Source: a virus
Length of the DNA stretch: 64,000 nucleotides
Reading direction: 5' to 3' (one strand)
Virus record (IMG/VR): IMGVR_UViG_3300043313_001192
Coordinates: 25,598 to 89,597 of that record
A program made the translations under genes and the position numbers. The notes beneath the pieces are model-generated. The model was given only the letters and a program-made list of their open reading frames with translations, was not told the DNA's origin and ran no database searches. Position 1 is the first letter of the stretch, and each line of letters opens with the position of its first letter. Positions 6,046 to 26,755 of the stretch are shown here, one piece after another.

Positions 6046-6050
6046 ACGCA

Positions 6051-9108: not shown

Positions 9109-9120
9109 GCCCCAGCCACT

Positions 9121-9151: not shown

Positions 9152-9185
9152 CGCGCGCCCCAGGCCCGGCGGCCCGCGCAACGTC

Positions 9186-9310
9186 ACTGACGTTTACGCA
9201 GCTGCCCAACCCTCAAGCGCGCCTTCAGCGTTGCGCAGTTGTGCGTCGTCTGGACAGTGTGGTATGCTTACTTCAGTAAGCGACACAGAGACAACCGAAG
9301 GGAAACCCCC
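9186..9310 (+). promoter_or_regulatory. promoter cassette 12
   Basis: 16-mer 9186-9201 with the ACGTCACTGACGT extension (9181-9193); GTCTGGACAGTG then TGG-TATGCT with the hexamer at 9263-9268; dyad GCTTAC-TTCA-GTAAGC 9266-9281; leader ACAACCGAAGGGAAA before ATG 9311. Confidence 0.75.
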
Positions 9311-10198
9311 ATGAGCACCAAGACCGCCACCCGCCGCAAGCCGTCCGCCGCGAAGATCGCCGCCGCCGAGGAGCGCCTCGAAGCGATGCACGAGCAGTTG
9401 GTCGCCAAGACCGACGCGCTCGTCACGAGCGAGGGCTGGGCCGAGTACCTCGCGTTCGCCGCGCGGTTCCGTCAGTACTCGTTCCGCAACACGCTGCTGA
9501 TCCTGATGCAGATGCCGACCGCCACGCGGGTCGCGTCCTACCGGAAGTGGCTGGAGGTCGACCGGCAGGTCCGCAAGGGCGAGCGCGGCTTGCAGATCTT
9601 CGCCCCGATGACGCGCAAGCGCGAGGACGCGGACGGCAAGGAGCGGACCTACATCAGCGGCTTCCGGCTGGTCTCGGTCTTCGACGTCTCGCAGACCGAC
9701 GGCGAGGCCCTGCCCGAGGACCCGGCCACGCCGGTGCTGCTGGACGGCATGGCGCCCGAGGGTCTGTGGCAGTCGCTGGCCGAGATGGTCTTCGACGCTG
9801 GCTACACGCTGCGGGTCGCCGCCAGCGAGCACGGGGAGAACGGCTACACGAACCCGGTGGACAAGGTGGTGCAGGTGAGCGAGGGCCTCAGCGAGGCGCA
9901 GTCGTGCAAGACCCTGATCCACGAGGTCGCGCACATGCTGCTGCACTGCGACGACAAGGCCCTGACCGAGGACGCGATCCTTCACCGGAACGTGGCCGAG
10001 ATCGAGGCCGAGAGCGTGGCGCACATCGTGGCCATGGTGCACGGGCTGGCGAGCGACACCTACTCGATCCCGTACGTCGCGGGCTGGAGCAACGGCAAGA
10101 CCGAGGTGATCGCCGCCACGGCGGACCGCGTGCTCAAGACCGCGAAGACGATCCTCGCCAAGACCGAGGGCAACGGAGAGGAGGAGGACGCGGCCTGA
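9311..10198 (+). CDS. ArdC-like antirestriction protein with zinc-protease motif, 295 aa
   Basis: ATG 9311 follows GAAGGGAAA. Residues about 20-130 match the N-terminal ssDNA-binding domain of ArdC/DUF1738 proteins (YSFRNTLLILMQMPTATRVASYRKW, RKGERGLQIFAP). Residues 204-208 are HEVAH, the zincin signature of the C-terminal ImmA/IrrE-like metallopeptidase, with a downstream glutamate-rich helix (EIEAESVAHIVAMV) that could give the third ligand. ArdC proteins protect incoming DNA from restriction. In a phage this suggests early host-defence evasion, which is inference from the family. Confidence 0.82.
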   Translation: MSTKTATRRKPSAAKIAAAEERLEAMHEQLVAKTDALVTSEGWAEYLAFAARFRQYSFRNTLLILMQMPTATRVASYRKWLEVDRQVRKGERGLQIFAPMTRKREDADGKERTYISGFRLVSVFDVSQTDGEALPEDPATPVLLDGMAPEGLWQSLAEMVFDAGYTLRVAASEHGENGYTNPVDKVVQVSEGLSEAQSCKTLIHEVAHMLLHCDDKALTEDAILHRNVAEIEAESVAHIVAMVHGLASDTYSIPYVAGWSNGKTEVIAATADRVLKTAKTILAKTEGNGEEEDAA

Positions 10199-10211
10199 GC
10201 CGCACGGCACC

Positions 10212-10245
10212 AGAGCCCCGGCCCCGCAAGGGGTCGGGGCTCTTG
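10212..10245 (+). terminator. intrinsic terminator
   Basis: A 14-bp stem (AGAGCCCCGGCCCC, GCAA loop, one G-U pair) followed by TT. Confidence 0.8.
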
Positions 10246-10259
10246 CCTTGCCGGGGCCT

Positions 10260-10360
10260 ACTGACGTTTACGCAGAGCTGGCCCTGGTGGGCTCGTCTTG
10301 CTTCTGACTGCACGATGCTGTAGGCTTACATCAGTAAGCCAAACGACGAAGGGACAAGCA
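10260..10360 (+). promoter_or_regulatory. promoter cassette 13
   Basis: 16-mer 10260-10275; TTGCTT (10298-10303), 17-base spacer, TAGGCT (10321-10326); dyad GGCTTAC-ATCA-GTAAGCC 10323-10340; leader AAACGACGAAGGGACA before ATG 10361. Confidence 0.75.
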
Positions 10361-10585
10361 ATGAGCACCGTCACCGTGAGCAAGGCCGCGACGATCATCG
10401 CGAGCGCGGACGCGGCGTACGACCGCGAGGATCAGGCATGGTTCGATGCGCTCCCCACCGAGTCGCTCACGCTGCTGTGGGGCGTCGCCTGCGCCAACAT
10501 CTCCGGCGCGTCTTGGGACGATGAGGTCTACGACGCGCTCGCAGAGCGCGGGTGGTTCGACACGGAGGACGGGGAGGTGAACTGA
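10361..10585 (+). CDS. hypothetical protein, 74 aa
   Basis: First of three overlapping genes under cassette 13. Small, acidic and helical (TIIASADAAYDREDQAWFDALP, DDEVYDALAERGWFDTEDGE). The TGA overlaps the ATG of the next gene. No motif recognised. Confidence 0.7.
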   Translation: MSTVTVSKAATIIASADAAYDREDQAWFDALPTESLTLLWGVACANISGASWDDEVYDALAERGWFDTEDGEVN

Positions 10586-10872
10586 TGGCTGTCCGACTGA
10601 TGAACCAGAGCGAAGCCAAGCGCCCCACCGCGTCCGGCCACTGGCTAGGGTCCGAGATCTTCTACACCGAGGACGAGGACTTCTACACGATCCGCTTCCA
10701 CGCCCGCACCTACGACGGCATCAAGGTCACGTCCTCCTACACGACCGGGGAGATCAGGCTGACCGGGCAGGGGGGCTTCCTCAAGTCCGAGGTCAAGCGG
10801 CTCTTCCACCAGTTCGCGAGCCTCTACATCACCGAGGCCGACCTCGATGCTGTCCGCAAGGACGAGTCCTGA
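10585..10872 (+). CDS. hypothetical protein, 95 aa
   Basis: ATG 10585 lies inside the preceding stop (TGATG), with GGGGAGG about 9 bases upstream. Predicted alpha/beta protein with a basic C-terminal half (GGFLKSEVKRLFHQFASLYI). Translationally coupled on both sides. Function unknown. Confidence 0.72.
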   Translation: MAVRLMNQSEAKRPTASGHWLGSEIFYTEDEDFYTIRFHARTYDGIKVTSSYTTGEIRLTGQGGFLKSEVKRLFHQFASLYITEADLDAVRKDES

Positions 10873-10985
10873 TGGGCCAGAAGTGGTGGCCAGTGCACCA
10901 CGGTGCCCCCGCCGCCGGGCACGTCACCGCAGGTGGCTTCTGGCATCCGGGAGGGGGACACAACTGCTCCAAGTGCAAGGGCTAA
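10872..10985 (+). CDS. tiny Cys/His-containing protein, 37 aa
   Basis: ATG 10872 overlaps the TGA of the previous gene (TGATG) and the frame runs to TAA 10985. The peptide ends in HNCSKCKG and has several His and Trp (KWWPVHHG, GGFWHPGGGH), so metal binding is plausible. It is too short for a confident family assignment. The exact overlap with the preceding gene is the main support. Confidence 0.5.
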   Translation: MGQKWWPVHHGAPAAGHVTAGGFWHPGGGHNCSKCKG

Positions 10986-11026
10986 GGTCCGCCCCATGGA
11001 TCCCATGATCGCCTACCTCAAGCGTC

Positions 11027-11055
11027 GCGCCGCCCAGTTCATCACTGGGCGGCGC
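11027..11055 (+). terminator. hairpin terminator
   Basis: GCGCCGCCCAGT (11027-11038) pairs perfectly with ACTGGGCGGCGC (11044-11055), 5-base loop, ahead of cassette 14. Confidence 0.75.
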
Positions 11056-11078
11056 AGTCGTTTCGACAGCGCGGCGCC

Positions 11079-11224
11079 ACTGACGTTTACGCAGAGCTGC
11101 CCCAGTTGCCTGGCCGCGCATCCCTCCAACTTCAAGCATCTGTCGAGGTGATGGGGTAGACTAACGACATGAACTGAACACAACGACGCACGACATCAAC
11201 CGACACAACGACGAAAGAGACCAC
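11079..11224 (+). promoter_or_regulatory. promoter cassette 14 (no dyad)
   Basis: 16-mer 11079-11094; TAGACT (11157-11162). Instead of a dyad the start region leads into a long leader with three ACAACGAC-type repeats (to about 11215) and GAAAGAG before ATG 11225. Confidence 0.68.
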
Positions 11225-11947
11225 ATGAAGCGCATCATCTTTGCCCTGCTCGCCGCAGTGGTGCTGGTCGGGCTGTTCACGCCCAACGCCAGCGCCGCAT
11301 CCGGTGACAGCGCACGCAAGAAGAACGCGGCCTGCGTGACCAAGGCCGAGTACAAGAAGGTCAAGCGAGGGCACACGCTCAAGCAGGTCAAGAAGATCTT
11401 CGGCACCAACGGCCGTACGTCCTCCACGATGAACTCCTCCTACACCGAGTGGGTCTGGGGCGACTACGTCGAGGGCCACGACGAGTCCTACTGGGTCGAC
11501 GGCTACTGGTCCGAGTACGCCACCTGGATCGACGGCACCTGGGACGACGAGGGCAACTACACCGAGGGCCACTACGAGCCCGGCATGGTCGACGGCTACT
11601 GGGACTCCTACTACGTCGACGGCTACTGGGAGGACGACTACTCCTACAACGTCTCGCAGTGGGACTCCTTCCGCGACTACAAGAAGTGCAAGTCGTGGAA
11701 CCACGGACGTGGCCGCGTCGCGATCAACTTCGACAACTACTCCTCGCGCTACTCCGGCTACCGGGTCTACTCCAAGTACCCCAGCCGCCCGTGGATCTGG
11801 GACGCGCTGAACCTGCGCACCACCTCGCACGAGAGCATCCTCGGCGACAAGACGGTGCCGGACGCCGCGCACACCGGACCCTCGAACCACGACCACGAGG
11901 TGACGCCGGAACCGGCACAGCCCCCGCACAAGCAGCCGCAGCACTGA
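11225..11947 (+). CDS. secreted BLIP-like protein with YW repeats, 240 aa
   Basis: A clear Sec signal peptide (MKRIIFALLAAVVLVGLF...ASA, cleavage near residue 24). Residues about 37-64 (CVTKAEYKKVKRGHTLKQVKKIF) match the BLIP/SmpA-type helix-strand unit found in actinobacterial secreted proteins. A tyrosine/tryptophan/aspartate repeat follows at about residues 88-145, with VDGYW present three times, then a Pro/His-rich tail. It is predicted to be exported from the infected cell. A role at the cell surface, such as superinfection control, is possible but unproven. Confidence 0.75.
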   Translation: MKRIIFALLAAVVLVGLFTPNASAASGDSARKKNAACVTKAEYKKVKRGHTLKQVKKIFGTNGRTSSTMNSSYTEWVWGDYVEGHDESYWVDGYWSEYATWIDGTWDDEGNYTEGHYEPGMVDGYWDSYYVDGYWEDDYSYNVSQWDSFRDYKKCKSWNHGRGRVAINFDNYSSRYSGYRVYSKYPSRPWIWDALNLRTTSHESILGDKTVPDAAHTGPSNHDHEVTPEPAQPPHKQPQH

Positions 11948-11965
11948 TCCACCCGCACTCCACAG

Positions 11966-11992
11966 CCCCCGGCGCCACTGGCGTCGGGGGTT
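11966..11992 (+). terminator. intrinsic terminator
   Basis: CCCCCGGCGCC (11966-11976) pairs with GGCGTCGGGGG (11980-11990), 3-base loop, then TT. Confidence 0.78.
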
Positions 11993-12016
11993 CGTGCGTT
12001 CGAGGGGCAAGACGTC

Positions 12017-12127
12017 ACTGACGTTTACGCAGCTCCAGGGCCTGAAGCCCACCAGGCTGCTTGGGAACTGACGCTACCCTGTGATATGCTGACGTAGTCA
12101 GCAAGACAACGACGTAAGGACGAAGAC
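12017..12127 (+). promoter_or_regulatory. promoter cassette 15
   Basis: 16-mer 12017-12032 with the ACGTCACTGACGT extension (12012-12024); TTGGGA (12061-12066), 18-base spacer, TATGCT (12085-12090) preceded by TGA; dyad GCTGAC-GTA-GTCAGC 12088-12102; leader ACAACGACGTAAGGACG. Confidence 0.78.
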
Positions 12128-12448
12128 ATGACCTTCACCATCCCGCGCCCCGACTGGGTCACCGACCAGTCGATCGGCCGACGTGGCGAGTACGCCCAGT
12201 TCTGCATGTTCACCCGCGAGGGCAACGACGCCGTGGGCGCCATGGTGCTGGCGATCCTGAGCGACGCGGTGCGTCTGGGTCCGCCCCGCACCGTGGTGAT
12301 CGAGGCGATCCAGCAGGGTGTCCGCAACCTGACCGCACGCTTCCCCGAGGTGCACGACACCGAGCCCGAGTGGGCGATCGTGGACGCGGTGAACCACTAC
12401 CTCGAACTGCGCGAACTGCCCCGCACGAGCCGCGAGGAGCTGTTCTGA
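12128..12448 (+). CDS. hypothetical protein, 106 aa
   Basis: First of three overlapping genes of cassette 15. Helical protein (AVGAMVLAILSDAVRLGPPRTVVIEAIQQGVRNLTARF) with no metal or membrane motif. The TGA overlaps the next ATG. Function unknown. Confidence 0.72.
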   Translation: MTFTIPRPDWVTDQSIGRRGEYAQFCMFTREGNDAVGAMVLAILSDAVRLGPPRTVVIEAIQQGVRNLTARFPEVHDTEPEWAIVDAVNHYLELRELPRTSREELF

Positions 12449-12828
12449 TGAGCGACGCCCACATCGAGATCGACCCGCTGCTGTTCATGCAGGCCGTGGT
12501 CGATGACCACCTCGAACTGATCGAGTCGATCGAGGACGCAGGTGCCGCGTTCGGCCCGATGATCGGCATGCCCGGCATGGACGCTCTGGCCGGGAGCGTG
12601 GCCGACGTGGGCCGCGAGAAGGTCACCGAGGCCCAAGAGCACCTCGACATGCTGGTCGCCACCGATCCCACCTGGGAGCCCTGCTACGGCACGTGGTGCG
12701 AGATGGTCTACGAGGACACCGATCCTGAGGTCGGCGACATCCTGAGGTGCACGGTGCACAACTACACCGTGATCGCCGACGCCTACGTCTGCGAGGGCTA
12801 TCAGGCTCCGCCGTACACCGGGCCATGA
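12448..12828 (+). CDS. hypothetical protein, 126 aa
   Basis: ATG 12448 overlaps the previous stop (TGATG), and its own stop overlaps the next start (ATGA). The N-terminal half is acidic and helical (LFMQAVVDDHLELIESIEDAG). The C-terminal half is Cys/Tyr-rich (EPCYGTWCEMVYEDTDPEVG, LRCTVHNYTVIADAYVCEGY), possibly a metal or disulphide module. Function unknown. Confidence 0.7.
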   Translation: MSDAHIEIDPLLFMQAVVDDHLELIESIEDAGAAFGPMIGMPGMDALAGSVADVGREKVTEAQEHLDMLVATDPTWEPCYGTWCEMVYEDTDPEVGDILRCTVHNYTVIADAYVCEGYQAPPYTGP

Positions 12829-13115
12829 GCCGCACCAACGTCTACCGGGACGGCAAGGTGCACGTGATGGAGCGCAAGTGCGTCACGTGCATCTACCGGC
12901 CCGGCAACCTGATGCACCTCGAACCGGGCCGCAAGGACGGCATGCAGGCGGACGCGATCCGCGACGAGGGAGTGATCCCCTGCCACCAGACGATCCACGG
13001 CAGGCGCGAGCAGGAGAGCGTGTGCCGAGGGTTCTTCGATGTCGCCAAGCACGAGGGCCTGCTCGCTGTGGCCGAGCGCCTGGACATCATCGAGTTCACG
13101 CCCTGCGAGGAGTGA
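12825..13115 (+). CDS. Cys-cluster actinophage protein, 96 aa
   Basis: ATG 12825 overlaps the preceding stop. The pattern KCVTCIYRPGNLMHLEPGR, then IPCHQTI, SVCRGFFD and a terminal Cys is that of a widespread actinophage protein family with four conserved cysteines, expected to hold a metal or cluster. The family's function is not established as far as I know. Last gene of its operon; no clear terminator follows. Confidence 0.75.
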   Translation: MSRTNVYRDGKVHVMERKCVTCIYRPGNLMHLEPGRKDGMQADAIRDEGVIPCHQTIHGRREQESVCRGFFDVAKHEGLLAVAERLDIIEFTPCEE

Positions 13116-13152
13116 GCCCGACGCCGACGAGTTCTGTCGGTGGTCGCTGGTT

Positions 13153-13289
13153 CACTGACGTTTATGCAGAGCTGGCCCGAACCCCCTCCCCCGCCGGACG
13201 ATCCTTCTCGACCTGAGTTGGTGAATCCGGATTCCCCATGTTACGATTACGGAGTAATCGAGCATGACCACACGACGAAGGACGAAGAG
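13153..13289 (+). promoter_or_regulatory. promoter cassette 16 (variant site)
   Basis: The 16-mer at 13153-13168 has one change (TTTATGCAG for TTTACGCAG). TTGGTG (13218-13223), 18-base spacer, TACGAT (13242-13247) preceded by TGT; dyad CGATTAC-GGA-GTAATCG 13244-13260, again a new stem sequence; leader CACGACGAAGGACGAAGAG. The site lies two helical turns further upstream than in cassettes 1-3. Confidence 0.72.
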
Positions 13290-13640
13290 ATGACCACCAC
13301 CGAGGCCCCTGCGCCCGCCACCCCGACCACTCCGACCACGAAGGACAGCCGCATCGCGGACGTCACCGCAGTGCTCGCCAGCGTCGATCAGGGCGAGGCC
13401 CTGCGCGACCGCATCAAGGCGATGCAGGCCGAACTCAAGGTCCACGAGGACAACATCAAGGACGCGCTGGGCGAGGCCACCACCGGCGTCGACGGCAAGG
13501 GCAAGGTCGTGGTCCGCTACCCGGTCCGCAACCGCTCCGGACTGTCCAAGGAGAAGGTCAAGGACCGGCTCTCCCCGACCGACTACGCCGAGTGCGAGAC
13601 GGTCACCGAGTACCGGACGCTGCTGTACGGCGAGGGCTGA
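13290..13640 (+). CDS. hypothetical protein with coiled-coil segment, 116 aa
   Basis: ATG 13290 is chosen because the cassette leader ends directly before it; an ATG at 13264 lies inside the leader. A Pro/Thr-rich N-terminus precedes a helical segment (QGEALRDRIKAMQAELKVHEDNIKDAL), then a small beta region (GKGKVVVRYPVRNRSGL). The C-terminal layout recalls proteins found near phage recombination nucleases, but this is weak. Function unknown. Confidence 0.7.
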   Translation: MTTTEAPAPATPTTPTTKDSRIADVTAVLASVDQGEALRDRIKAMQAELKVHEDNIKDALGEATTGVDGKGKVVVRYPVRNRSGLSKEKVKDRLSPTDYAECETVTEYRTLLYGEG

Positions 13641-13643
13641 GCC

Positions 13644-14012
13644 ATGGCGATGTTCATGAACCGCAACGAGGTCGTGGAGACGCTGGCCTACTGCGGCGAT
13701 CAGGTGGAGGACGTGCCCAACCTCTACGAGGGCGCTCGCGTGCTCTACTCGCTGATGGAGTGGGTCGACTCCCACTCCGACGGCTGGCCGTACTGGCAGC
13801 CACCGCAGCGCGCTGCCAGTCGGCTGATCGAGGCCCTGCACAGCCGGAACTTCGCGCTCCGGTTCGGGGAGGAGCGGGACGGTTCGCCGCTGGCCGACGT
13901 GACCGACGCGGAACTGGCCGCGTGCCTGCGCCCGATCAAGTCGTTCCTGACCAAGCAGGAGGTCAACTGGCACGCCGACCTGCCGTGGGCTGCCCTGTTC
14001 CCTGCTGCTTGA
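13644..14012 (+). CDS. hypothetical protein, 122 aa
   Basis: ATG 13644, three bases after the previous stop, same transcript. Helical protein with many aromatic residues (VLYSLMEWVDSHSDGWPYWQPP) and a C-terminal helix (CLRPIKSFLTKQEVNWHADLPW). No motif recognised. Confidence 0.7.
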   Translation: MAMFMNRNEVVETLAYCGDQVEDVPNLYEGARVLYSLMEWVDSHSDGWPYWQPPQRAASRLIEALHSRNFALRFGEERDGSPLADVTDAELAACLRPIKSFLTKQEVNWHADLPWAALFPAA

Positions 14013-14110
14013 GCCTGTCGAGAGAGGATGGATCTAGCCCGGCTCCCGCTGCAGTCCCCCCACTGCCGGGAGTCGGGTCTAGTCTGTCCCCAGCGACGAA
14101 GGGACGAGCG

Positions 14111-14314
14111 ATGTACGTGCATCGAGACAAGCGTGGCGGGGTCACTCTGACACCCGACGAGGCCGAGGTCTGTGACCTGTTCCTGATGCTGGTCATCGAG
14201 GGCGAGGACATTCCGCACGCGGCCCAGTACGCGCTGAGCACGATGGTGCTGCCCGACCCGACGTTCGCTGCCTGGCTGAGCCTGGGGATGCTCTCGCACG
14301 AGCGAGCTGACTGA
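14111..14314 (+). CDS. hypothetical protein, 67 aa
   Basis: ATG 14111 after CAGCGACGAAGGGACG. A promoter without a 16-mer is likely just upstream (TAGTCT at 14080-14085 after an inverted GGCTCCCG/CGGGAGTC). The protein is acidic and helical (DEAEVCDLFLMLVIEGEDIPHAAQYAL). Its TGA stop lies inside the 16-mer of the next cassette (14310-14325). Confidence 0.68.
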   Translation: MYVHRDKRGGVTLTPDEAEVCDLFLMLVIEGEDIPHAAQYALSTMVLPDPTFAAWLSLGMLSHERAD

Positions 14315-14414
14315 CGTTTACGCAGGCTGAGCCGCATCGTCACGAGGCGCTGTGTCCACTCGTTGTGGTAAACTGTCCCTAGACAGAACGACGAAACGAC
14401 CAAAGGACACACCC
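14310..14414 (+). promoter_or_regulatory. promoter cassette 17
   Basis: 16-mer 14310-14325, overlapping the stop codon of the previous gene; TGG-TAAACT with the hexamer at 14369-14374; dyad CTGTC-CCTA-GACAG 14373-14386; leader AACGACGAAACGACCAAAGGACA. Confidence 0.74.
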
Positions 14415-14600
14415 ATGGACCCGAACGCTGCACTCGCCGCCGCACGACAGGCCACCGAGGACTTCGAGAACGCCACCTCGATCTCGCAGGAGTTGGACGC
14501 CGCCGAGCGGCTGGCGAGCAACTTCACCGCACTGGACCACTGGCTCTCGCAGGAGGGCTTCCTGCCCGGCGCGTGGGCAATCGCAGGGGAGCGTGGCTGA
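14415..14600 (+). CDS. hypothetical protein, 61 aa
   Basis: Small helical protein (LAAARQATEDFENATSISQ, LDAAERLASNFTALDHWLSQ). TGA overlaps the next ATG, so it is coupled to the zinc protein downstream. Function unknown. Confidence 0.68.
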   Translation: MDPNAALAAARQATEDFENATSISQELDAAERLASNFTALDHWLSQEGFLPGAWAIAGERG

Positions 14601-14749
14601 TGGAGCCGTACTGCGCCGACTGCGGGCTGAGCCTGCACGCGCAGGCCGAGAAGGCGATCGCCTCCGGTGAGTGGCAGATGGTCTGGGCCGACATGGACGG
14701 CTCGTGGATCTGCCCGCAGACCGGCAACGAGCACCGGCCGCAGGACTAG
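14600..14749 (+). CDS. small zinc-knuckle-like protein, 49 aa
   Basis: ATG 14600 overlaps the preceding stop and TAG is at 14747-14749. CADC near the N-terminus and WICPQTGNEH near the end could form one zinc site across a short helix. The stop overlaps the stop of the convergent minus-strand gene. Confidence 0.62.
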   Translation: MEPYCADCGLSLHAQAEKAIASGEWQMVWADMDGSWICPQTGNEHRPQD

Positions 14750-14994
14750 GCCGAGGCCGAGTCCTGCATCTTGTTCAGGCGCTCCTGCAGTTCAGCGATC
14801 TGGCTCTGGATGCGCTCCGCATCCACGCGACCACGTGGCTTCGGCTCGACACCTTCCAGCGTCGCCTGCTGGGCGTAGAGCGCGTCGAAGCGCTCCTGGT
14901 TCTCGTTGATGAGAAGCTGCGTGGCCTTGTAGCGCGCCCTGTTGGCTGCGCGCACCTGCGCCTTGTGCTTCTCGGGATCTGATCTGGTGACCAT
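14746..14994 (-). CDS. basic coiled-coil protein, 82 aa
   Basis: Minus strand, with the leader AACGACAAAGGACA before its ATG, the same leader type as the plus-strand cassettes. The first half is basic and helical (EKHKAQVRAANRARYKATQLLI), the second a heptad-like coiled coil (DAERIQSQIAELQERLNKMQ). The opening sequence resembles a small protein family common in actinophages. Possible DNA-binding dimer; inference only. Confidence 0.72.
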   Translation of the reverse strand: MVTRSDPEKHKAQVRAANRARYKATQLLINENQERFDALYAQQATLEGVEPKPRGRVDAERIQSQIAELQERLNKMQDSASA

Positions 14995-15071
14995 GGTCTG
15001 GGGTCCCCTGTCCTTTGTCGTTCCCCACTGCTGACGAGAGAGCCTCTGCTCGACTCATGTTCTGCACTGCC

Positions 15072-15100
15072 AGTCTATGCAAACACAGCCGCGTTCACAA
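15072..15100 (-). promoter_or_regulatory. minus-strand promoter for the coiled-coil gene
   Basis: On the minus strand TTGTGA (15095-15100), 17-base spacer, TAGACT (15072-15077), and then a short dyad ACTG-G-CAGT at the start. The 16-mer at 15109-15124 begins 9 bases upstream of this -35, in the orientation opposite to that used for plus-strand promoters. Confidence 0.65.
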
Positions 15101-15108
15101 CACCACAC

Positions 15109-15393
15109 ACTGACGTTTACGCAGACAGGGCTGTACCCGCAACCATGTTGGGGCAAACACCGAGGCTGTGCGAGGCTCAGCCTGCTGAGCCGCTACGCCT
15201 TGCTGAGCAGGGGTTCCCTGCCAGCAGATTTGTGTCGGACCCCTGCCCTAGGGTTGCCCTGTTAGGCAAACCCACAGGGACAGAACAGACTAGACCAGTT
15301 CGTGCCCACCCGCCCCTCGATTATGGAGTGGCGCAATGGTGTGGTAGGCTCTGGGTACAGAGCCAGACAAGTGAACGACGAAAGGACACGCAC
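15109..15393 (+). promoter_or_regulatory. promoter cassette 18 (distant site)
   Basis: 16-mer 15109-15124. The plus-strand promoter lies 235 bases away: TTATGG (15321-15326), 18-base spacer, TAGGCT (15345-15350) preceded by TGG; dyad GGCTCTG-GGTA-CAGAGCC 15347-15364; leader GAACGACGAAAGGACA before GTG 15394. The 16-mer here may serve the divergent minus-strand promoter. I see no gene in the 200 bases between. Confidence 0.65.
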
Positions 15394-16731
15394 GTGAGCA
15401 CCAAGAGCACCGCCGTGATGATGCAACTCGCCACGGCCGACGGGGATTCCAAGCAGCAGATGGTGGTCTTCGCCAACAAGGCGGTCTACCGACGCAGCCT
15501 CACCGAGGGCACCCGCACCCGCTGGCGCTACGCCAGCGTGGGCGACCTGCCTACGTGGGTCGAGGGCTACGTCAACCTGACCAAGGCCGCGCCCACGCCG
15601 ATGAGCATCAGCCACGGCGCCACCCTGATGGAGGTCACCGAGGACGAGGCCACCGAGGCCGAGGGCGGCGCGTTCCCGCGCAACGTGGGGCTGCGCTACT
15701 CCCGCGTGATCGACGCGATGGACGCGGACCCGACCAGCAACGTCCCCACGCCGGACGTGAAGCAGTACGTGCAGGACTGGATCGACGCACACAGCCGCGA
15801 CGACAACGCGTGGATCGACACCCACGTGCACAGCGCTGGCACCGCCGTGGTCAAGCCTGCCGCGCCCGAGCCTGAGCCCGAGCCTGAGCCCGAGGTCAGC
15901 GTGGCCACCACGACGGGCGGCTGGACCTACCCCGAAACCAAGGGCGGCTACATCACCCGGCCCAACGGGACCAAGTACAAGGTCCGCAAGATCGACGGCA
16001 CGCCCGACGTGCAGGTGATCCGCGAGGCTCGCCCCGACCGCGAGCACGTGTTCCTGTTCGGTGAGCCGGGGACCGGCAAGACGGCGCTGGTCGACTCCGC
16101 ATTCGGGGACGATCTGGTGACCATGCTGGGCACCGAGGACACCGAGGTCGCGGACTTCATCGGCGGCTACACCGTGCGCGGTGGCGGGTCCTACGGCTGG
16201 ACGGACGGCGCGCTCACCGAGGCGATGGAGCGCAAGGTCCCGCTGTTCATTGACGAGATTGGGGTGATCGCTCCCAAGGTGCTCACCACCGTGTTCTCGG
16301 TGATGGACGGCCGCGACGAGATTCGGATCACCGCGAACCCCGACCGGGGCATCGTGACCGCTGGGCACGGCTTCATGGTGCTGGCAGCCACGAACCCGCA
16401 CGCCCCCGGCGTGCGCCTCTCCGAGGCTCTGCTGAGCCGGTTCGCGATCCACTTGGAGGTCGGCTCGGACTACTCCGTGTGCCGCGAGATGGGTGTGCCG
16501 GACGTGCTGGTCACCGCAGCCGAGAACCTCGACAAGCGCCGCAGCACTGGCGAGATTGGCTGGGCACCGCAGATGCGCGAGTTGCTCCGCGCCAAGGCGC
16601 AGTGGACCAAGCGCGGGGACACGTTCGCGATCCGCAACCTGATCAGCGGCGCACCCGAGGACGACCGCGAGGTCGTGGCCGAGGTCATGGCCCGCACCAC
16701 CGGGAAGAAGTTGACCGGGCTGGTGCTCTGA
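15394..16731 (+). CDS. MoxR-type AAA+ ATPase, 445 aa
   Basis: GTG 15394 is the only start positioned behind the cassette leader AAAGGACA. An N-terminal part of about 190 residues ends in a Pro/Glu linker (EPEPEPEPE). The AAA+ core follows: Walker A GEPGTGKT (223-230), Walker B PLFIDEI (FIDEI 285-289), sensor-1 LAATNPH and an arginine finger in LLSRF. The arrangement fits the MoxR/CbbQ/CobS class. Such ATPases act with a VWA-domain partner in maturing or remodelling metalloproteins and complexes, and the partner is encoded next. The phage target is unknown. Confidence 0.85.
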   Translation: MSTKSTAVMMQLATADGDSKQQMVVFANKAVYRRSLTEGTRTRWRYASVGDLPTWVEGYVNLTKAAPTPMSISHGATLMEVTEDEATEAEGGAFPRNVGLRYSRVIDAMDADPTSNVPTPDVKQYVQDWIDAHSRDDNAWIDTHVHSAGTAVVKPAAPEPEPEPEPEVSVATTTGGWTYPETKGGYITRPNGTKYKVRKIDGTPDVQVIREARPDREHVFLFGEPGTGKTALVDSAFGDDLVTMLGTEDTEVADFIGGYTVRGGGSYGWTDGALTEAMERKVPLFIDEIGVIAPKVLTTVFSVMDGRDEIRITANPDRGIVTAGHGFMVLAATNPHAPGVRLSEALLSRFAIHLEVGSDYSVCREMGVPDVLVTAAENLDKRRSTGEIGWAPQMRELLRAKAQWTKRGDTFAIRNLISGAPEDDREVVAEVMARTTGKKLTGLVL

Positions 16732-16736
16732 GACTT

Positions 16737-16830
16737 CCGGCCCGCGCTGTTGCAAGCGCGGGCCGGGGGACCGTTCACAGTGAACGGCTCTGTAGTGCTG
16801 GCGCCAGTCCGCGTTCGGGCTGGCGTCAGC
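16737..16830 (+). terminator. three tandem hairpins
   Basis: CCGGCCCGCGCT/AGCGCGGGCCGG (16737-16766) is a perfect terminator-like stem. It is followed by CCGTTCAC-A-GTGAACGG (16771-16787) and GCTGGCGCCAG/CTGGCGTCAGC (about 16798-16830). Three stems in a row between the ATPase and the VWA gene could tune their expression ratio. Confidence 0.6.
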
Positions 16831-16843
16831 CAGGAGAGCAGCT

Positions 16844-17012
16844 ACTGACGTTTACGCAGGACAGCGCGACGTGCGCGAGGGGCGCAGGACGTGGCAAGAT
16901 CAGCAGTGCCGAGGGATGCACCGATTAGGTAATGACGAGCCAGTGGTGTAAACTGAGGTTACGAGGTCAGGGTGACTCCCCGACACAGACAGAACGACGA
17001 AAGGACACGGCC
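16844..17012 (+). promoter_or_regulatory. promoter cassette 19
   Basis: 16-mer 16844-16859; TTAGGT (16925-16930), 18-base spacer, TAAACT (16949-16954). Only a weak dyad (CTGA...TCAG, 16953-16970). Leader GAACGACGAAAGGACA before ATG 17013. Site-to-promoter distance is longer than usual (104 bases). Confidence 0.65.
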
Positions 17013-19559: not shown

Positions 19560-19671
19560 ACTGACGTTTACGCAGCCTGGCGCCGACCTGGTGGGCTGGG
19601 CCTGGTTTGCCTGATGACCTAGATGGTGTAGACTGTTCTCAACAGCCCAACGACGACAAGGACACACTGAC
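19560..19671 (+). promoter_or_regulatory. promoter cassette 20
   Basis: 16-mer 19560-19575 with the ACGTCACTGACGT extension (19555-19567); TTTGCC (19606-19611), 17-base spacer, TAGACT (19629-19634); dyad CTGTT-CTC-AACAG 19633-19645; leader CAACGACGACAAGGACA. The last cassette with an intergenic 16-mer; it drives at least the operon 19672-20943. Confidence 0.75.
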
Positions 19672-20954: not shown

Positions 20955-21554
20955 ATGGACGGCATCCGGGATGGCTTCGGCGACGACCCCACGGTCGATG
21001 AGGTGCTGGCGGACGAGGAGGAGTTCCTGGTCCGCAACGCCCGGCACGCCCTGGTCAAGAAGATGGGCCGGGGCTTCCCCGCCGGGGCGGACGAGGACGC
21101 TGTCCAGGAGGCCCGCATTGCGGCCTGGCAGTCCTGGGAGAAGAACCACAACCGGGCCTACCTGAACATCGCTGCCCGGCAGCGGCTGATGGCCCATGTC
21201 TTTCGGGACCAGTGGTTCGGCACCAAGCCGACCGCACACGAGAAGGATCCGATCCGCCGGGCCAACCGCTCCAGCTTCGATGACCCGGACAACGGCATTG
21301 ACGTTCTGGTGGACTCGGCGACCTGGGTGGACCAGGTCCTTCTGGGCTACCACCACGGCGAGATCCACCAGGCGCTGGACGCACTGACGTTTACGCAGAG
21401 GGAGTACGTGGTGCTGCGCTTCTGGGGTGGGATGTCGGACACCGAGATCGCTGCGCACCAGGGCAAGACACGGGGCGGAGTGTCCTCGGTGTGGCACAAG
21501 AGCATCCGCCCGGCCCTCGCCTCTCAGTTGGAGTTGCTGAGCGACCTGTGCTAA
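20955..21554 (+). CDS. sigma-70-family-like factor, 199 aa
   Basis: ATG 20955, 11 bases after the previous stop. Residues about 45-90 (AVQEARIAAWQSWEKNHNRA, YLNIAARQRLMAHVFRDQWF) look like sigma region 2. Residues about 136-190 (LDALTFTQREYVVLRFWGGM, SDTEIAAHQGKTRGGVSSVW) match sigma region 4, the helix-turn-helix that reads -35 elements and is touched by activators. Size and layout suit an ECF-type sigma or a sigma-like regulator. Residues 144-148 (LTFTQ) are encoded by a perfect copy of the 16-bp regulatory site in frame. It probably redirects host RNA polymerase; the promoter it reads is unknown. Confidence 0.75.
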   Translation: MDGIRDGFGDDPTVDEVLADEEEFLVRNARHALVKKMGRGFPAGADEDAVQEARIAAWQSWEKNHNRAYLNIAARQRLMAHVFRDQWFGTKPTAHEKDPIRRANRSSFDDPDNGIDVLVDSATWVDQVLLGYHHGEIHQALDALTFTQREYVVLRFWGGMSDTEIAAHQGKTRGGVSSVWHKSIRPALASQLELLSDLC

Positions 21555-21595
21555 ACTGTTCCTAGGAACAGACCAACGACGAAGGACGAACTGAC
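21383..21595 (+). promoter_or_regulatory. promoter cassette 21 (site inside the sigma-like gene)
   Basis: Exact 16-mer at 21383-21398 within the coding sequence. The promoter for the next operon is TGC-TAAACT with the hexamer at 21552-21557, overlapping the end of the sigma-like gene, with the perfect palindrome CTGTTCCTAGGAACAG (21556-21571) at the start site and leader CCAACGACGAAGGACG before ATG 21596. The site is 168 bases from the -10, so it may act differently from the others. Confidence 0.65.
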
Positions 21596-21943
21596 ATGAC
21601 TGACCTGCCCCGCAACGAGCACGGCGAGATCGACTGCTCCGCTTCCTACGGTGAACTCTGGTTCGTGAAGATCCAGTACAACACCGACAGCGAGAACCGC
21701 GAGATCGCCGAGGACGACGAGAAGACGTTCGAGGAGTCGGTGACCTACCACGGCCCGTTCTTCAGCCAGCAGGAGGCTGCTGACTGGTGCAACGCCTACC
21801 CCGAGGACCCCGACGTCCACGACATGTACGTGTGGAACATGAACGCGGTCCGGCCCGACGGCAAGCCCCCGATCACCAAGGAGACCGTGGCGTACGCCGA
21901 CGGCGAGTCCGCTGCCCGTGCCGACCTGGGGCTGAAGGCATGA
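21596..21943 (+). CDS. hypothetical protein, 115 aa
   Basis: First gene after cassette 21. Acidic alpha/beta protein (GELWFVKIQYNTDSENRE, HGPFFSQQEAADWCNAYPED). The ATGA overlap with the next gene shows translational coupling. Function unknown. Confidence 0.72.
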   Translation: MTDLPRNEHGEIDCSASYGELWFVKIQYNTDSENREIAEDDEKTFEESVTYHGPFFSQQEAADWCNAYPEDPDVHDMYVWNMNAVRPDGKPPITKETVAYADGESAARADLGLKA

Positions 21944-22347
21944 TCACGCTGCCTGCCCTGGTCAAGGACGTGTCCGGCCAGTACTACGGCGGAGCGTTCT
22001 GGGACAGCGCCGACTACCGCATCAAGATCGTGACGCTCGACGGCTCCGGGGAGAACTTCCGGATGACCGTGGAGTCCGCCAGCGGCGGTGAGGTCGGCAC
22101 CTACGAGTTCGGTATCGCCGAGGCCGAGGGCATCGCCCGGATGGCCTCCACCGACCACGGGCTCGGCGGCTACGAGGACGACTGGGCCATCCCCTCCGGG
22201 ATGGGCCGGACGCTGTCCTGGAGCCTGCCCACCGTCATGGATCACCTGGTCGTCCTGGAGCAGGACGTCATCGACGAGATCGCCGACTGGCTGGAGTACG
22301 CCACGGGTCAGAAGACCTGGACCGGCGGGGACGAGTGGGAGTTCTGA
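21940..22347 (+). CDS. hypothetical protein, 135 aa
   Basis: ATG 21940 overlaps the preceding stop. Beta-rich N-terminus (QYYGGAFWDSADYRIKIV, ENFRMTVESASGGEVG) and helical C-terminus (LVVLEQDVIDEIADWLEYATG). TGATG overlap with the next gene. Function unknown. Confidence 0.72.
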   Translation: MITLPALVKDVSGQYYGGAFWDSADYRIKIVTLDGSGENFRMTVESASGGEVGTYEFGIAEAEGIARMASTDHGLGGYEDDWAIPSGMGRTLSWSLPTVMDHLVVLEQDVIDEIADWLEYATGQKTWTGGDEWEF

Positions 22348-22580
22348 TGGGCACCTTCATCCGCAGCGCCGAGCACATCATGGCTTCAGTTGCTGACGCT
22401 GTCGACGCCATCGACGACGGCGACATCGACATCCACACCATCAGCCTGGTGCTCAACGGCCAGCACGGGGAGTTCGATCTCCGCATCGAGGCCACCGACG
22501 ACGACATGGAAGACCGGCTGTGGACCGGCATCGCGCACCGCGGTGGCGGCATCACCGATCTCGGAGAGGTAGTGGACTGA
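22347..22580 (+). CDS. acidic protein, 77 aa
   Basis: ATG 22347 overlaps the preceding stop. Very acidic (ADAVDAIDDGDIDIHTIS, RIEATDDDMEDRLW). Coupled to the tiny gene that follows. Function unknown. Confidence 0.68.
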   Translation: MGTFIRSAEHIMASVADAVDAIDDGDIDIHTISLVLNGQHGEFDLRIEATDDDMEDRLWTGIAHRGGGITDLGEVVD

Positions 22581-22699
22581 TGGACATCCAGATCACCACC
22601 AGCGACCCGGCGGAGATCAACGTCGAGGAGATCGAGCGAGCGCTCCTGAACCTCGACTACTTCGTCGGCAAGATCACCGTCGTCGAAAGGGTGGAGTGA
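22580..22699 (+). CDS. tiny acidic protein, 39 aa
   Basis: ATG 22580 and TGA 22697-22699 both overlap neighbouring genes (TGATG at each end). Acidic helix (INVEEIERALLNLDYFVG). Tight overlaps on both sides and consistent codon use support it despite its size. Confidence 0.58.
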   Translation: MDIQITTSDPAEINVEEIERALLNLDYFVGKITVVERVE

Positions 22700-22911
22700 T
22701 GGTGCTGCCACTGACGATCACCGTGGTCGCCTGCCTGGTGGTCGGCTACCTGGTCAAGCCGGTGATCGAGCGCGACGCCCACAACATCCCGCAGCCGATC
22801 CCGCACCGGATGGTGGTGGCAGCTCGGCTCTCGATGCTGGCCGCCATCATCATCGGCGGTTGGTCGGCCTTCGTGCTGGCCACCATCGCCCTGAAGAACT
22901 GGATCGCTTGA
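22699..22911 (+). CDS. two-span membrane protein, 70 aa
   Basis: ATG 22699 overlaps the previous stop, with AAAGGGTGGAG upstream. Two membrane segments (LPLTITVVACLVVGYLV and LSMLAAIIIGGWSAFVLATI) joined by a short basic/proline loop. Its stop lies inside the next promoter's -35. Unknown membrane role. Confidence 0.7.
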   Translation: MVLPLTITVVACLVVGYLVKPVIERDAHNIPQPIPHRMVVAARLSMLAAIIIGGWSAFVLATIALKNWIA

Positions 22912-22967
22912 CAACAACCCTGTGATACCCTGTTATCACGAAACGACGCAACGACAAGGAGAACGAC
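22908..22967 (+). promoter_or_regulatory. consensus-like promoter with dyad, no 16-mer
   Basis: TTGACA (22908-22913), 17-base spacer, TGTTAT (22931-22936), the best sigma-A match in the window. The same stretch also contains TGA-TACCCT and a dyad GTGATA-CCCTGT-TATCAC (22922-22939) like the cassette dyads, then leader AAACGACGCAACGACAAGGAG. It drives the operon 22968-25365. Confidence 0.75.
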
Positions 22968-23831
22968 ATGGCACGTGTCACGCACGTGAAGAAGGCGCAG
23001 CAGCGCTACGAGACCGTCCCCGTCATCGACGAGGCCACCGGGGAGCCCAAGCGCACCCAGGTGATGAAGGGCGGTGAGCCCAAGATGACCCGCGCCAAGA
23101 CCGGTCGCCCGGCCCGGCCGGTGTTCATGACCGTCACGGTCCAGGACAAGACCAAGCCGTTGCCCAACTACACCTGCGACTTCTGCCACCAGGAGATCGA
23201 GGTGGGCACGCCCTACAAGCACATCACCCCGAAGAGCGGACCGTACGGCGGGCGCAAGCGCACCCGGCACGAGGGCTGCCCGTCGTGGAACGTCTGGGAG
23301 TACTCGAACTCCTGGAGCGCCCGGATCGCCCAAGCCACCGCGGACTTCGATGTCTCCGAGGTCGACGACCCGGAGCAGGTCCAGGAGGGTCTCGACGACG
23401 TGGCGGCTGCCATCAAGGAGCTGGCCGAGGAGTCCCGTGAGACCGCGGGCAACATCGAGGACGGCTTCGGTCACCCGACGTCGCAGTCGGAGGAGGCCGA
23501 GCAGCGTGCCGACGACCTGGACGGCTGGGCTGACGAGATCAGCGGTGTCGACATCCCGGAGCTTCCCGAGCCCGAGCCGCGGTGGTTCATCACCAACGGT
23601 GACGGGGTGGCCTCGGACCTGTTCGAGGAGGACGGCTACGACAGCGAGATGGATGCCCAGCAGGCGCTGGACAGCCAGCGTGAGGACGACCAGCCGGGCT
23701 CCAGCGACGAGCCGGACGACGGCTTCGAGGTCGAGGAGATCACCCCGGAGGAGCCGTCCGAGGAGCAGCTGAACGACTGGCGCTCCGAGGTCGAGGACGC
23801 CTGCTCCATCGTCTTCGAGAGCCCCGTCTGA
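22968..23831 (+). CDS. conserved zinc-binding actinophage protein, 287 aa
   Basis: ATG 22968 after AAGGAGAACG. Basic N-terminus (ARVTHVKKAQQRYETVPVID), then a zinc site CDFCHQEIEVG with a later HEGC (about residues 70-105). A helical segment follows, and then a long acidic tail (DGYDSEMDAQQALDSQRED, EVEEITPEEPSEEQ). The N-terminal sequence resembles a family found repeatedly in actinophages, with no assigned function. Confidence 0.75.
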   Translation: MARVTHVKKAQQRYETVPVIDEATGEPKRTQVMKGGEPKMTRAKTGRPARPVFMTVTVQDKTKPLPNYTCDFCHQEIEVGTPYKHITPKSGPYGGRKRTRHEGCPSWNVWEYSNSWSARIAQATADFDVSEVDDPEQVQEGLDDVAAAIKELAEESRETAGNIEDGFGHPTSQSEEAEQRADDLDGWADEISGVDIPELPEPEPRWFITNGDGVASDLFEEDGYDSEMDAQQALDSQREDDQPGSSDEPDDGFEVEEITPEEPSEEQLNDWRSEVEDACSIVFESPV

Positions 23832-24082
23832 TGGCCGCCGTGGAGATCACCGTGACCCGCTCCGCCGGAGACGACCGGGCGGTCACGGTGCTCATCGACA
23901 CCGACTTCGAGCCCGACGCCAGTGACGGTGGACCTGGGCTGCGCATCCTGCTCAACGACGACGAGACGTACACCGGTAAGGCGTACGACCTGGGTGCGCA
24001 CCATGCCGCCGGGGCCAGGCGCCTGGTCGTCGAGCTGGACGACATCGCCTATGACGTCACTGACGAAACGAAGGAGGGCTGA
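23831..24082 (+). CDS. hypothetical protein, 83 aa
   Basis: ATG 23831 overlaps the previous TGA. Small beta-rich acidic protein (VEITVTRSAGDDRAVTVLID, ARRLVVELDDIAYDVTDE). Function unknown. Confidence 0.7.
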   Translation: MAAVEITVTRSAGDDRAVTVLIDTDFEPDASDGGPGLRILLNDDETYTGKAYDLGAHHAAGARRLVVELDDIAYDVTDETKEG

Positions 24083-24083
24083 G

Positions 24084-24305
24084 ATGGCTGAGCCAGCTGA
24101 GCTGAAGACCTACCAGGTCGAGGTGCTCGTCGAGGTGAAGATGGCCGGTGACGAGAACGCCGCGTACACCGCGGTCGACGAGATCATGCAGCGTGCCTGG
24201 GACACCGATGACGGTCGCACCTGGGTCAAGCCCAAGTGGCACTTCGAGATGCTGGAGGGCTGCGTCGCCGACATCACGCCCGATGACGAAACGGCGGCCA
24301 GCTGA
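24084..24305 (+). CDS. hypothetical protein, 73 aa
   Basis: ATG 24084 with AAGGAGGG upstream. Single alpha/beta unit (LKTYQVEVLVEVKMAGDENA, AAYTAVDEIMQRAWDTDDG). TGATG overlap with the alpha-CTD-like gene. Function unknown. Confidence 0.7.
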   Translation: MAEPAELKTYQVEVLVEVKMAGDENAAYTAVDEIMQRAWDTDDGRTWVKPKWHFEMLEGCVADITPDDETAAS

Positions 24306-24661
24306 TGGCCAGGCAGCTGGACCTCACCGTCTTCGAGCCCGGCGACACCGTCGGGACCATGTCCCAGGACGGCCGGGTGGCGCTGTGGACGATCTCGGTC
24401 GACGGCAGCCTGGTGCGAGCTGACAACCGGCTGTTCGGGAACGTCACTGGGTTCACCCTGGAGACCCGCATCGAGGAGCTTGACCTTCAGGTGCGCACCT
24501 TCAACCTGCTCAAGCGCGAGGGCATCAACACCGTCGGTGACCTACTGACGTTTACGCACGAGAACGACGACGACGCGATGCTCCAGATCCGCAACATGGG
24601 TGCCAAGAACGTCACCGAAATCCGGGAGTGGGCCGCCAAGCTGAGGAGTGAACGCCCATGA
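24305..24661 (+). CDS. RNA polymerase alpha-CTD homologue, 118 aa
   Basis: ATG 24305 inside the preceding TGA. Residues about 1-50 form a short beta-rich leader domain. Residues about 56-113 align with the C-terminal domain of the RNA polymerase alpha subunit (IEELDLQVRTFNLLKREGIN, LQIRNMGAKNVTEIREW). By alignment with E. coli alpha the DNA-contact residues R265, N268, G296 and K298 correspond to R64, N67, G99 and K101, all present. The alpha-NTD is absent. A free alpha-CTD could compete for, or bridge, activators and upstream DNA. Residues 81-85 (LTFTH) are encoded by a near-perfect copy of the 16-bp regulatory site. Confidence 0.8.
   Translation: MARQLDLTVFEPGDTVGTMSQDGRVALWTISVDGSLVRADNRLFGNVTGFTLETRIEELDLQVRTFNLLKREGINTVGDLLTFTHENDDDAMLQIRNMGAKNVTEIREWAAKLRSERP
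24544..24559 (+). repeat. 16-mer copy (1 mismatch) inside the alpha-CTD-like gene
   Basis: ACTGACGTTTACGCAC differs from the consensus only in the last base. It is read in the same codon phase as the copy in the sigma-like gene (Leu-Thr-Phe-Thr). No promoter of the cassette type follows closely. Confidence 0.8.
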
Positions 24662-25156: not shown

Positions 25157-25365
25157 CCCGCGGGGAGCTGGTTGCGGTCACGGTCGCCACGGTGATCGGG
25201 GTCGGCGGGTTCATCGCGGTCGTCCGGGCGGCCTGGCGGGAGCTGCGCCAGGCTCCTGGAGCTGAGCCGGGCTGCGTAAACGTCAATGACGTCACGGTCG
25301 ACCAGGTGCCTGGCGGCCAGCTGCCCGACGGCCAGCTCGACGAGACCGTCGGTCGGGTGGAATAA
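25153..25365 (+). CDS. single-span membrane protein, 70 aa
   Basis: GTG 25153 overlaps the preceding stop (GTGA). Membrane segment at about residues 5-25 (ELVAVTVATVIGVGGFIAVV), then a basic stretch and a Gln/Asp-rich tail. An inverted near-copy of the 16-mer (25272-25287) lies within the tail-coding part. Last gene of the operon. Confidence 0.65.
   Translation: MTRGELVAVTVATVIGVGGFIAVVRAAWRELRQAPGAEPGCVNVNDVTVDQVPGGQLPDGQLDETVGRVE
25272..25287 (-). repeat. inverted 16-mer copy (1 mismatch)
   Basis: On the minus strand it reads ATTGACGTTTACGCAG. It overlaps the palindrome ACGTCAATGACGT. It is the only copy facing left, at the right end of the region that contains the site. Confidence 0.75.
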
Positions 25366-25507
25366 CGTCACTGACTTTTCTGCTGTAGCTAGCACCGTTG
25401 CGGCAGCTCTGATCGACCAACGATCGACATCCGGTTGATCGGTCGGATAGAGTAGTACAAATCAACCATCAACGATCAGCACCATCAACGACATGAAGGA
25501 CAGCACC
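25366..25507 (+). promoter_or_regulatory. promoter region with GATCGAC and ATCAAC repeats
   Basis: Begins with a degraded site (ACGTCACTGACTTTTCTGC). It holds GATCGACC and GATCGAC in tandem, an inverted pair GGTTGAT/ATCAACC (about 25432-25467) spanning TAGAGT and TACAAA (possible -10s), and a leader with three ATCAAC/ATCAACGA copies before AAGGACA. Probably operator plus promoter of the gene at 25508. Confidence 0.45.
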
Positions 25508-26002: not shown

Positions 26003-26755
26003 ATGAGCACCCAGACCCACTACGAACGAGCCGCTGCGGTCGCCGATGAACTGCTCGCCGCGCACGAGCGTGGTGAGTCGGTCTCCGCGATGGCCGAGGA
26101 GCACGGTCTCCGTCGCGAGGCGATCGCCTCCGAGCTGTCCAAGCACGGCATCGGCGCACCGTCGCCTGCCCGTGAGGCGGTCCTGGAGTACGTCCGCAAG
26201 AACCCCGGCCTGTCGGTCGACGACCTGTCGCTGCGGTTGGACCTGAGCAAGTCATCGGTCTCCCGCTACCTGCGCGGTACCCCCGAGCACCGGTTGGTCG
26301 TGTCCCGCAAGGTCTCGCCGACCCAGAAGTTCACCGACGCACAGATGGCGGATGCTCTTCGGGCTGCCTTCCGGCAGTTGGACGATCGGTCGAAGGGCCT
26401 GAGTCGGAAGCGGTACCGCGAGCTGATGGAGGGCCAGAACGTGCCCGCCGCGGCCACGTTCATCCGTCGCTACGGGACCTGGTCGGAGGCGTGTCGGTTG
26501 GCCGGGGTCACCGCGGCGAAGGCCCGCCGGGAGAACTACGTCCAGGACTGGTCCAACCAGGACATCGTGGACGCGGTCGCCGAGTTCGTGAACACCACGG
26601 ACCTGCTCAGCTACCACGCTTACGCAGCGTGGGCGCGCGAGCACGACAAGCCGTCGGGTCCCCTCCTCGTCCAGCGGTTGGGCGGTTGGGCCAAGGCGAA
26701 GACCCTGGCCATGTCCCAGTTCTCGACCGAGGACCGAACGGTCGCGGTCGCCTAG
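26003..26755 (+). CDS. HTH regulator with homing-endonuclease-associated repeats, 250 aa
   Basis: ATG 26003 after CAGGAGGACACC. Residues about 5-50 and 55-95 look like two helix-turn-helix units (VSAMAEEHGLRREAIASELS; LSVDDLSLRLDLSKSSVSRY). Residues about 110-165 and 183-240 are two copies of the homing-endonuclease-associated repeat (FTDAQMADALRAAF...GTWSEACRLAG; WSNQDIVDAVAEFV...GGWAKAKTLA). No nuclease domain is present, so it is probably a pure DNA-binding protein. It ends the left arm and is a candidate controller of the left-arm promoters; this is inference. Confidence 0.77.
   Translation: MSTQTHYERAAAVADELLAAHERGESVSAMAEEHGLRREAIASELSKHGIGAPSPAREAVLEYVRKNPGLSVDDLSLRLDLSKSSVSRYLRGTPEHRLVVSRKVSPTQKFTDAQMADALRAAFRQLDDRSKGLSRKRYRELMEGQNVPAAATFIRRYGTWSEACRLAGVTAAKARRENYVQDWSNQDIVDAVAEFVNTTDLLSYHAYAAWAREHDKPSGPLLVQRLGGWAKAKTLAMSQFSTEDRTVAVA

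Follow-up and report, generated by a model that had tools for sequence, protein, structure and literature searches.

Background

Sigma factors encoded by phages are known, as are phages that modify or cleave the C-terminal domain of the host RNA polymerase alpha subunit (alpha-CTD). In Escherichia coli, acidic residues at positions 259 and 261 of this domain contact region 4 of the sigma factor (sigma4). Bacteriophage T4 redirects the host RNA polymerase through both partners: MotA and AsiA appropriate sigma, and Alt and ModA modify the host alpha-CTD (PMC2988021). At class I promoters of E. coli, activation by CRP is maximal from sites centred at -61.5, -71.5/-72.5 and -82.5 and nil half a turn off, with cooperativity values of 105 at -71.5 and 19 at -82.5 as against 1.27 at -76.5 and 0.99 at -66.5 (PMC6301791). 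Cluster K mycobacteriophages carry a short repeated element, the start-associated sequence (SAS) with its extended form (ESAS), which precedes many small phage genes (PMC3203893). Here we describe a stretch of 64,000 nucleotides (the window; bases 25598-89597 of the 176,996-base virus record IMGVR_UViG_3300043313_001192) which encodes a stand-alone alpha-CTD and a sigma factor resembling the extracytoplasmic function (ECF) type, together with about 20 promoters marked by a repeated 16-mer. On the best reading of these sequences, the two proteins would act on the host polymerase and so regulate a set of class I-like phage promoters.

The window has a G+C content of 66.6%. The DNA polymerase of the phage is nearest to those of Actinomycetia phages (DSL-LC01, 47%; Microbacterium and Arthrobacter phages, 43-46%), and the phage can be classed as actinobacterial-type. 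A second record, IMGVR_UViG_3300043313_001352 (114 kb, hereafter the related phage), has most genes of the region in common with it. A nucleotide search of cultured phages returned no match.

A stand-alone alpha-CTD and a full-length ECF-like sigma factor

The 118-residue protein shows clear homology with the C-terminal domain of RpoA. RNA_pol_A_CTD (PF03118) matches residues 52-108 with an E-value of 4.6e-16 and 58.7 bits (gathering cut-off 23.8), and RpoA domains from the PDB match the same stretch (best E-value 1.7e-10). All six equivalents of the E. coli DNA-contact residues are present (R265=R64, N268=N67, K271=K70, N294=N97, G296=G99 and K298=K101); the related phage keeps five of them, G99 being replaced by S. 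By homology this protein is a true RNA polymerase alpha-CTD, and the only one in the whole 177-kb record. Unlike RpoA, it has an N-terminal region of its own of about 50 residues. Profile searches found no alpha N-terminal domain (alpha-NTD) nor any domain besides the alpha-CTD in the 118 residues, which therefore do not make up a complete alpha subunit. The protein is 76% identical in the related phage, and a dN/dS (ratio of nonsynonymous to synonymous substitution rates) of 0.46 places the gene under purifying selection. The open-access literature searched yielded no account of a free alpha-CTD encoded by a phage. A survey article on 224 jumbo phages deals with the sigma factors of phages and, in the passages searched, does not mention such a protein.

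In the 199-residue protein, Pfam profiles recognise Sigma70_r4_2 (E=1.4e-5), Sigma70_r4 (3.7e-5) and Sigma70_r2 (0.002), and the PHROG family "RNA polymerase sigma factor" matches with E=3.6e-8. Two NCBIfam profiles cover nearly its full length: SigE-fam_strep TIGR02983 (E=1.5e-12, residues 46-189) and sigma70-ECF TIGR02937 (E=1.1e-9, residues 33-185). As in ECF factors, sigma2 and sigma4 are thus found without sigma3 on a protein of about 200 residues. The scores fall slightly short of curated cut-offs (TIGR02937, 38.1 bits for 42.9; Sigma70_r4_2, 25.1 for 25.7, the latter reaching 27.4 bits and exceeding its cut-off in the genome search), which indicates a divergent protein. It differs from the described ECF families in this respect, in being phage-encoded and in the lack of a recognised anti-sigma partner. 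Judged from these profiles, the protein is a sigma factor of the ECF type, complete in length though divergent. The gene is evidently under purifying selection (95% identity with the related phage, dN/dS 0.10).

The earlier note on this DNA had described the second protein as carrying a region-4-type helix-turn-helix (HTH). This holds, but the protein extends beyond region 4 to a whole ECF-like sigma. Its description of the first, an alpha-CTD with equivalents of R265, N268, G296 and K298 and no alpha-NTD, agrees fully with the profile matches. Structure prediction added little, since relatives are too few: AlphaFold models built on two-row alignments reached a pLDDT (predicted local distance difference test) of 49 for the sigma protein and 42 for the alpha-CTD protein. 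Foldseek with the former gave SigK, FliA and SigmaS as best hits (E ~1-3, none significant), and neither model was used as evidence.

The sigma-like protein could also have become a DNA-binding regulator or an anti-sigma-like decoy. Scores below the cut-offs and the absence of a recognised target promoter class on phage DNA would agree with this, while the full sigma2-sigma4 length match and the strong purifying selection argue otherwise, and we regard such a loss of sigma function as quite unlikely. The minus strand was searched for repeated promoters as a possible target, and this was set aside: only a weak GATTCCCCAA-type motif was found, which could not be assigned. A second repeated motif, GATTCCCCAAC or GATTCACCAAC, lies near several minus-strand gene starts (for example window 46659, 81333 and 42373) and is sometimes palindromic with GTGGGGAAT.

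The 16-mer promoters have the geometry of class I activator sites

The 16-mer ACTGACGTTTACGCAG occurs in 20 exact copies and three with one mismatch, all within window positions 859-25272 and all but one on the plus strand (Table 1). Most precede small genes arranged as cassettes. Downstream of the 16-mer, these promoters have an extended -10 element (TRTGN-TANNCT) and a poor -35. In the two phages, the gaps between 16-mer and -10 are 39-45, 52-53, 61-64 and 72-74 bp, with one at 89, and cluster near 42, 52, 62 and 73. This corresponds to a period of about 10-10.5 bp (Rayleigh R at 10.5 bp is 0.66 in one phage and 0.83 in the other), which none of 20,000 trials with uniform gaps attained. Moreover, seven orthologous promoters do not have the same gap in the two phages: for five the change is close to whole turns (+12, +9, -10, +22 and +10), and for the other two it is +7 and -15. 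Taking as start site the conserved purine 12 nt past the first T of the -10, the 16-mers are centred near -62, -72, -82 and -93, that is, on one helix face at about -60 to -95, as is the case for activator sites.

The 16-mer promoters therefore have class I activator geometry as far as spacing defines it, and class I-type activation can be inferred from it. They resemble those of CRP both in the positions near -62, -72 and -82 and in their helical phasing; activator, DNA site and host group differ, and the phage case is known from sequence geometry. The likeness with SAS is confined to a short repeated element preceding many small phage genes. SAS adjoins the translation start, whereas the 16-mers lie far upstream (more than 80 bp from start codons) in helical phase with the -10, and they are not SAS elements.

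At each cassette promoter (window 1607-19650), as well as in the cassettes of phage DSL-LC01, the -10 and the presumed start are overlapped by a palindrome whose loop measures 3-5 nt. Its arms covary between promoters (GGCTGAC/GTCAGCC, CGCTTAC/GTAAGCG, CGCTTTC/GAAAGCG and TTGTTCTT/AAGAACAA) and between orthologues (GTGATA/TATCAC versus GTGGTA/TACCAC). An RNA hairpin was considered and rejected: if the start site is correct, it falls at the second arm, so that the palindrome would never be wholly transcribed. At window 3878-4020, a cassette promoter is followed by a stretch also present in the related phage (GAGACACCCGCTACGGATGCGAAACCGTGGGGTCTGACTGG), and the expected position of the start codon is empty. 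This is possibly a small RNA.

Copies of the 16-mer inside the sigma and alpha-CTD genes

Both genes of interest carry a 16-mer within their coding sequence. The two copies lie in the same reading frame (LTFT) and both encode Phe by TTT, a codon that accounts for 1.8% of the Phe codons of the genome. The use of very rare codons and the retention of the copies in the related phage show that it is the DNA sequence that is conserved. The distance between the copy in the sigma gene and the next cassette promoter is 153 bp in both phages; no TANNNT is found within 110 bp downstream of the copy in the alpha-CTD gene.

These copies, one without a nearby promoter and the other distant from it, could be taken to mean that the 16-mer is an element of another kind (for example a nucleoid-like, replication or antitermination site) with no special tie to the two genes, as could the single minus-strand copy. 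Such an element would be expected neither to keep helical phase with the -10 and change by whole turns between orthologues, nor to be oriented with the promoter in nearly all cases, and we consider this explanation very improbable. A link of the two proteins with the phased 16-mers, as proposed from the first inspection of the sequence, is instead upheld by the intragenic copies in both genes.

Table 1. Coordinates in the window of the 16-mers, promoters and regulatory genes
Feature	Position	Strand	Details
19 intergenic 16-mers upstream of small genes	859..16859	+	nearly all with in-phase TANNNT -10, 39-72 bp away
16-mer ACTGACGTTTACGCAG, promoter upstream of sigma gene cluster	19560..19575	+	-10 TAGACT at 19629, gap 53
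ECF-like sigma factor gene	20955..21554	+	199 aa; sigma2 ~residues 45-87, sigma4 ~135-185; Pfam, PHROG, NCBIfam
Exact 16-mer inside sigma4 coding sequence (LTFTQ)	21383..21398	+	exact copy also in related phage
Cassette-type promoter TGTGC-TAAACT with palindrome CTGTTCCTAGGAACAG, end of sigma gene	21547..21567	+	153 bp past intragenic 16-mer
Cassette-type promoter without upstream 16-mer (best match 7 mismatches)	22921..22939	+	precedes gene run 22968-25365 including alpha-CTD gene
Stand-alone RNA polymerase alpha-CTD gene	24305..24661	+	118 aa; own N-terminal region 1-50, alpha-CTD 52-108; PF03118 and PDB RpoA
16-mer (1 mismatch) inside alpha-CTD coding sequence (LTFTH)	24544..24559	+	2 mismatches in related phage
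16-mer (1 mismatch), sole minus-strand copy	25272..25287	-	motif scan
Degenerate 16-mer (3 mismatches), promoter of genes 25493-26755	25370..25385	+	-10 TAGAGT 62 bp downstream
Multi-HTH protein gene, candidate 16-mer-binding activator	26003..26755	+	250 aa; Pfam HTH and HNH_repeat matches

A candidate binder of the 16-mer

Among viral contigs, the repeated 16-mer is found in these two phages only. Genome contigs gave 48 scattered single matches and no multi-copy contig. The 16-mer thus appears specific to the two phages. A host transcription factor was considered as its binder and is unsupported, no bacterial contig scanned having a repeated 16-mer; the confinement of the repeats makes a phage-encoded binder likelier than a host one. 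The binder is therefore probably encoded by the phage. The gap at the promoter of the multi-HTH protein gene is 62 in both phages. The protein itself (93% identical in the related phage, dN/dS 0.23) was detected in these two 16-mer-bearing phages alone, and by this association it is a candidate for the 16-mer activator.

Comparison with other phages and viral contigs

The sigma and alpha-CTD genes recur together in the related phage. Among the phages tested, the pair is confined to those with the 16-mer regulon: the alpha-CTD was not found in any of five cultured relatives, nor was a convincing sigma4 match (one weak match occurs in Pumpernickel), and tblastn of the sigma protein against cultured phages gave no match. 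As for the alpha-CTD, most tblastn matches in phage records were to contigs without annotation, possibly of bacterial origin, which were excluded. DSL-LC01, which has neither protein, retains the same cassette layout and ribosome-binding leader. Its approximately 25 cassette promoters are near-consensus (TGTTATAAT) and lack the 16-mer, which fits a 16-mer system compensating for weak promoters.

Similar modules occur elsewhere. In five IMG/VR contigs (L042, L044, L045, L046 and L053) sigma-70 region 4 is fused to an alpha-CTD, with no sigma2 or alpha-NTD match, and other viral contigs also carry stand-alone alpha-CTDs; their viral origin rests on IMG/VR. The fusions imply that phages couple these modules elsewhere too and suggest a wider class of viral proteins directed at RNA polymerase, of which we found no description in the open-access literature searched. 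They employ the same two modules in one polypeptide without sigma2, while in the window phage the alpha-CTD is a protein apart and the ECF-like sigma is complete. Proteins of Bacillus phage Goe8 (QDP42789) and Microbacterium phage Atraxi (gp24), for which no characterisation was found, also have a C-terminal alpha-CTD behind an N-terminal region. These N-terminal regions are unrelated to that of the window protein, and the proteins have no known tie to a repeated promoter site.

Such examples bear on the possibility that the alpha-CTD is a general DNA-binding or host-takeover protein (acting for instance against host activators or UP elements), unrelated to the 16-mers and with the sigma factor independent of it. 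The occurrence of free alpha-CTDs behind unrelated N-termini in Goe8 and Atraxi, and the loss in the related phage of the acids that contact sigma4, would both fit. However, the 16-mer lies inside the alpha-CTD and sigma genes in both phages, and the pair was detected only together with the 16-mer regulon. A function of this kind is unlikely.

How the phage may redirect the host polymerase

No beta-subunit-type phage RNA polymerase was detected, and a search for a T7-type enzyme was negative, though it had no working positive control. Two transcription parts and about 20 phased promoters, with no polymerase detected, suggest that the phage steers rather than replaces the host polymerase. The earlier note had contrasted this locus with takeover by a phage polymerase, and its view is supported by the former search. 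Whereas T4 modifies the host alpha-CTD and remodels the host sigma, the window phage encodes its own version of each.

We tentatively favour, at somewhat less than even confidence, a model in which the host RNA polymerase is reprogrammed by three phage-encoded parts, namely an activator on the 16-mer, an alpha-CTD modulator and the ECF-like sigma. The phage would thus rely on the host enzyme and redirect it with its own small parts. At about 20 promoters, a DNA-bound activator, most likely the multi-HTH protein on the 16-mer, would recruit polymerase through an alpha-CTD-type contact. The free alpha-CTD may bind DNA at these promoters and compete with or replace the host alpha-CTD beside the activator, either as a helper or as an inhibitor. 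The sigma factor, to judge by its family, would bind the host core enzyme and lead it to additional phage promoters. The alpha-CTD could act first, with sigma made afterwards from within the 16-mer regulon, an order that would be allowed by the position of the sigma gene behind a 16-mer promoter (gap 53) and of the alpha-CTD gene behind one without.

A stricter form of this model, in which the free alpha-CTD is an obligatory partner in trans of the phage activator at the phased promoters with sigma as the next stage, is doubtful. If true, a detached piece of RNA polymerase would make the host holoenzyme answer a phage-specific upstream site.

Conversely, the free alpha-CTD might be dominant-negative, titrating 16-mer-bound or host activators and shutting off the cassette promoters while sigma leads to later ones. 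Class I geometry makes the alpha-CTD the expected contact, a protein without alpha-NTD cannot assemble into the polymerase, and both genes come after the cassette array. On the other hand, the insertion described below disrupts the activator-contact surface, the DNA-contact residues, needless for a pure sink, are kept, and the gene is served by a separate promoter that lacks the 16-mer. We consider such a role possible but somewhat unlikely.

Several observations weigh against the favoured model. The sigma/alpha-CTD/16-mer system is carried by two phages only, and DSL-LC01 provides a single contrast. Some cassettes may be duplicates, which makes the gaps less than wholly independent. The alpha-CTD gene follows its own cassette promoter (22926), which has no 16-mer, and its dN/dS exceeds those of the sigma and HTH genes. 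In alignments with PDB RpoA sequences, the alpha-CTD has a 4-residue insertion at the position of the E. coli activator-contact determinant (287). The patch equivalent to residues 259/261 reads EELD in the window and EQLN in the related phage, and this neutralisation weakens the idea of a conserved direct bridge between alpha-CTD and sigma4. A search of the phage DNA for a sigma-dependent promoter class recognised none. Finally, any contact of either protein with RNA polymerase, DNA or the activator is itself deduced from sequence. The transcription switch originally proposed for these proteins consequently stands in part: the protein identities, the link with the 16-mer and the class I geometry support it, while the bridge to sigma4 is weakened.

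With an alpha-CTD of its own, an ECF-like sigma and a class I-like regulon side by side, such a phage offers a system in which to ask whether a detached alpha-CTD works. Whole-turn differences between orthologous promoters amount to a spacing experiment made by nature, and DSL-LC01 is a relative in which the apparatus is missing.

Other genes of the phage

At window 15394-18842, a gene for a MoxR-type AAA+ ATPase precedes a vWA/CobT-like gene, and both the related phage and DSL-LC01 conserve this pair. The phage also encodes a TROVE-domain (Ro60-like) protein (L009:2233-3897; genome 110033-111700). An open reading frame of 4406 residues rich in collagen repeats (window 53402-66622, extending past the window) is a probable tail fibre.

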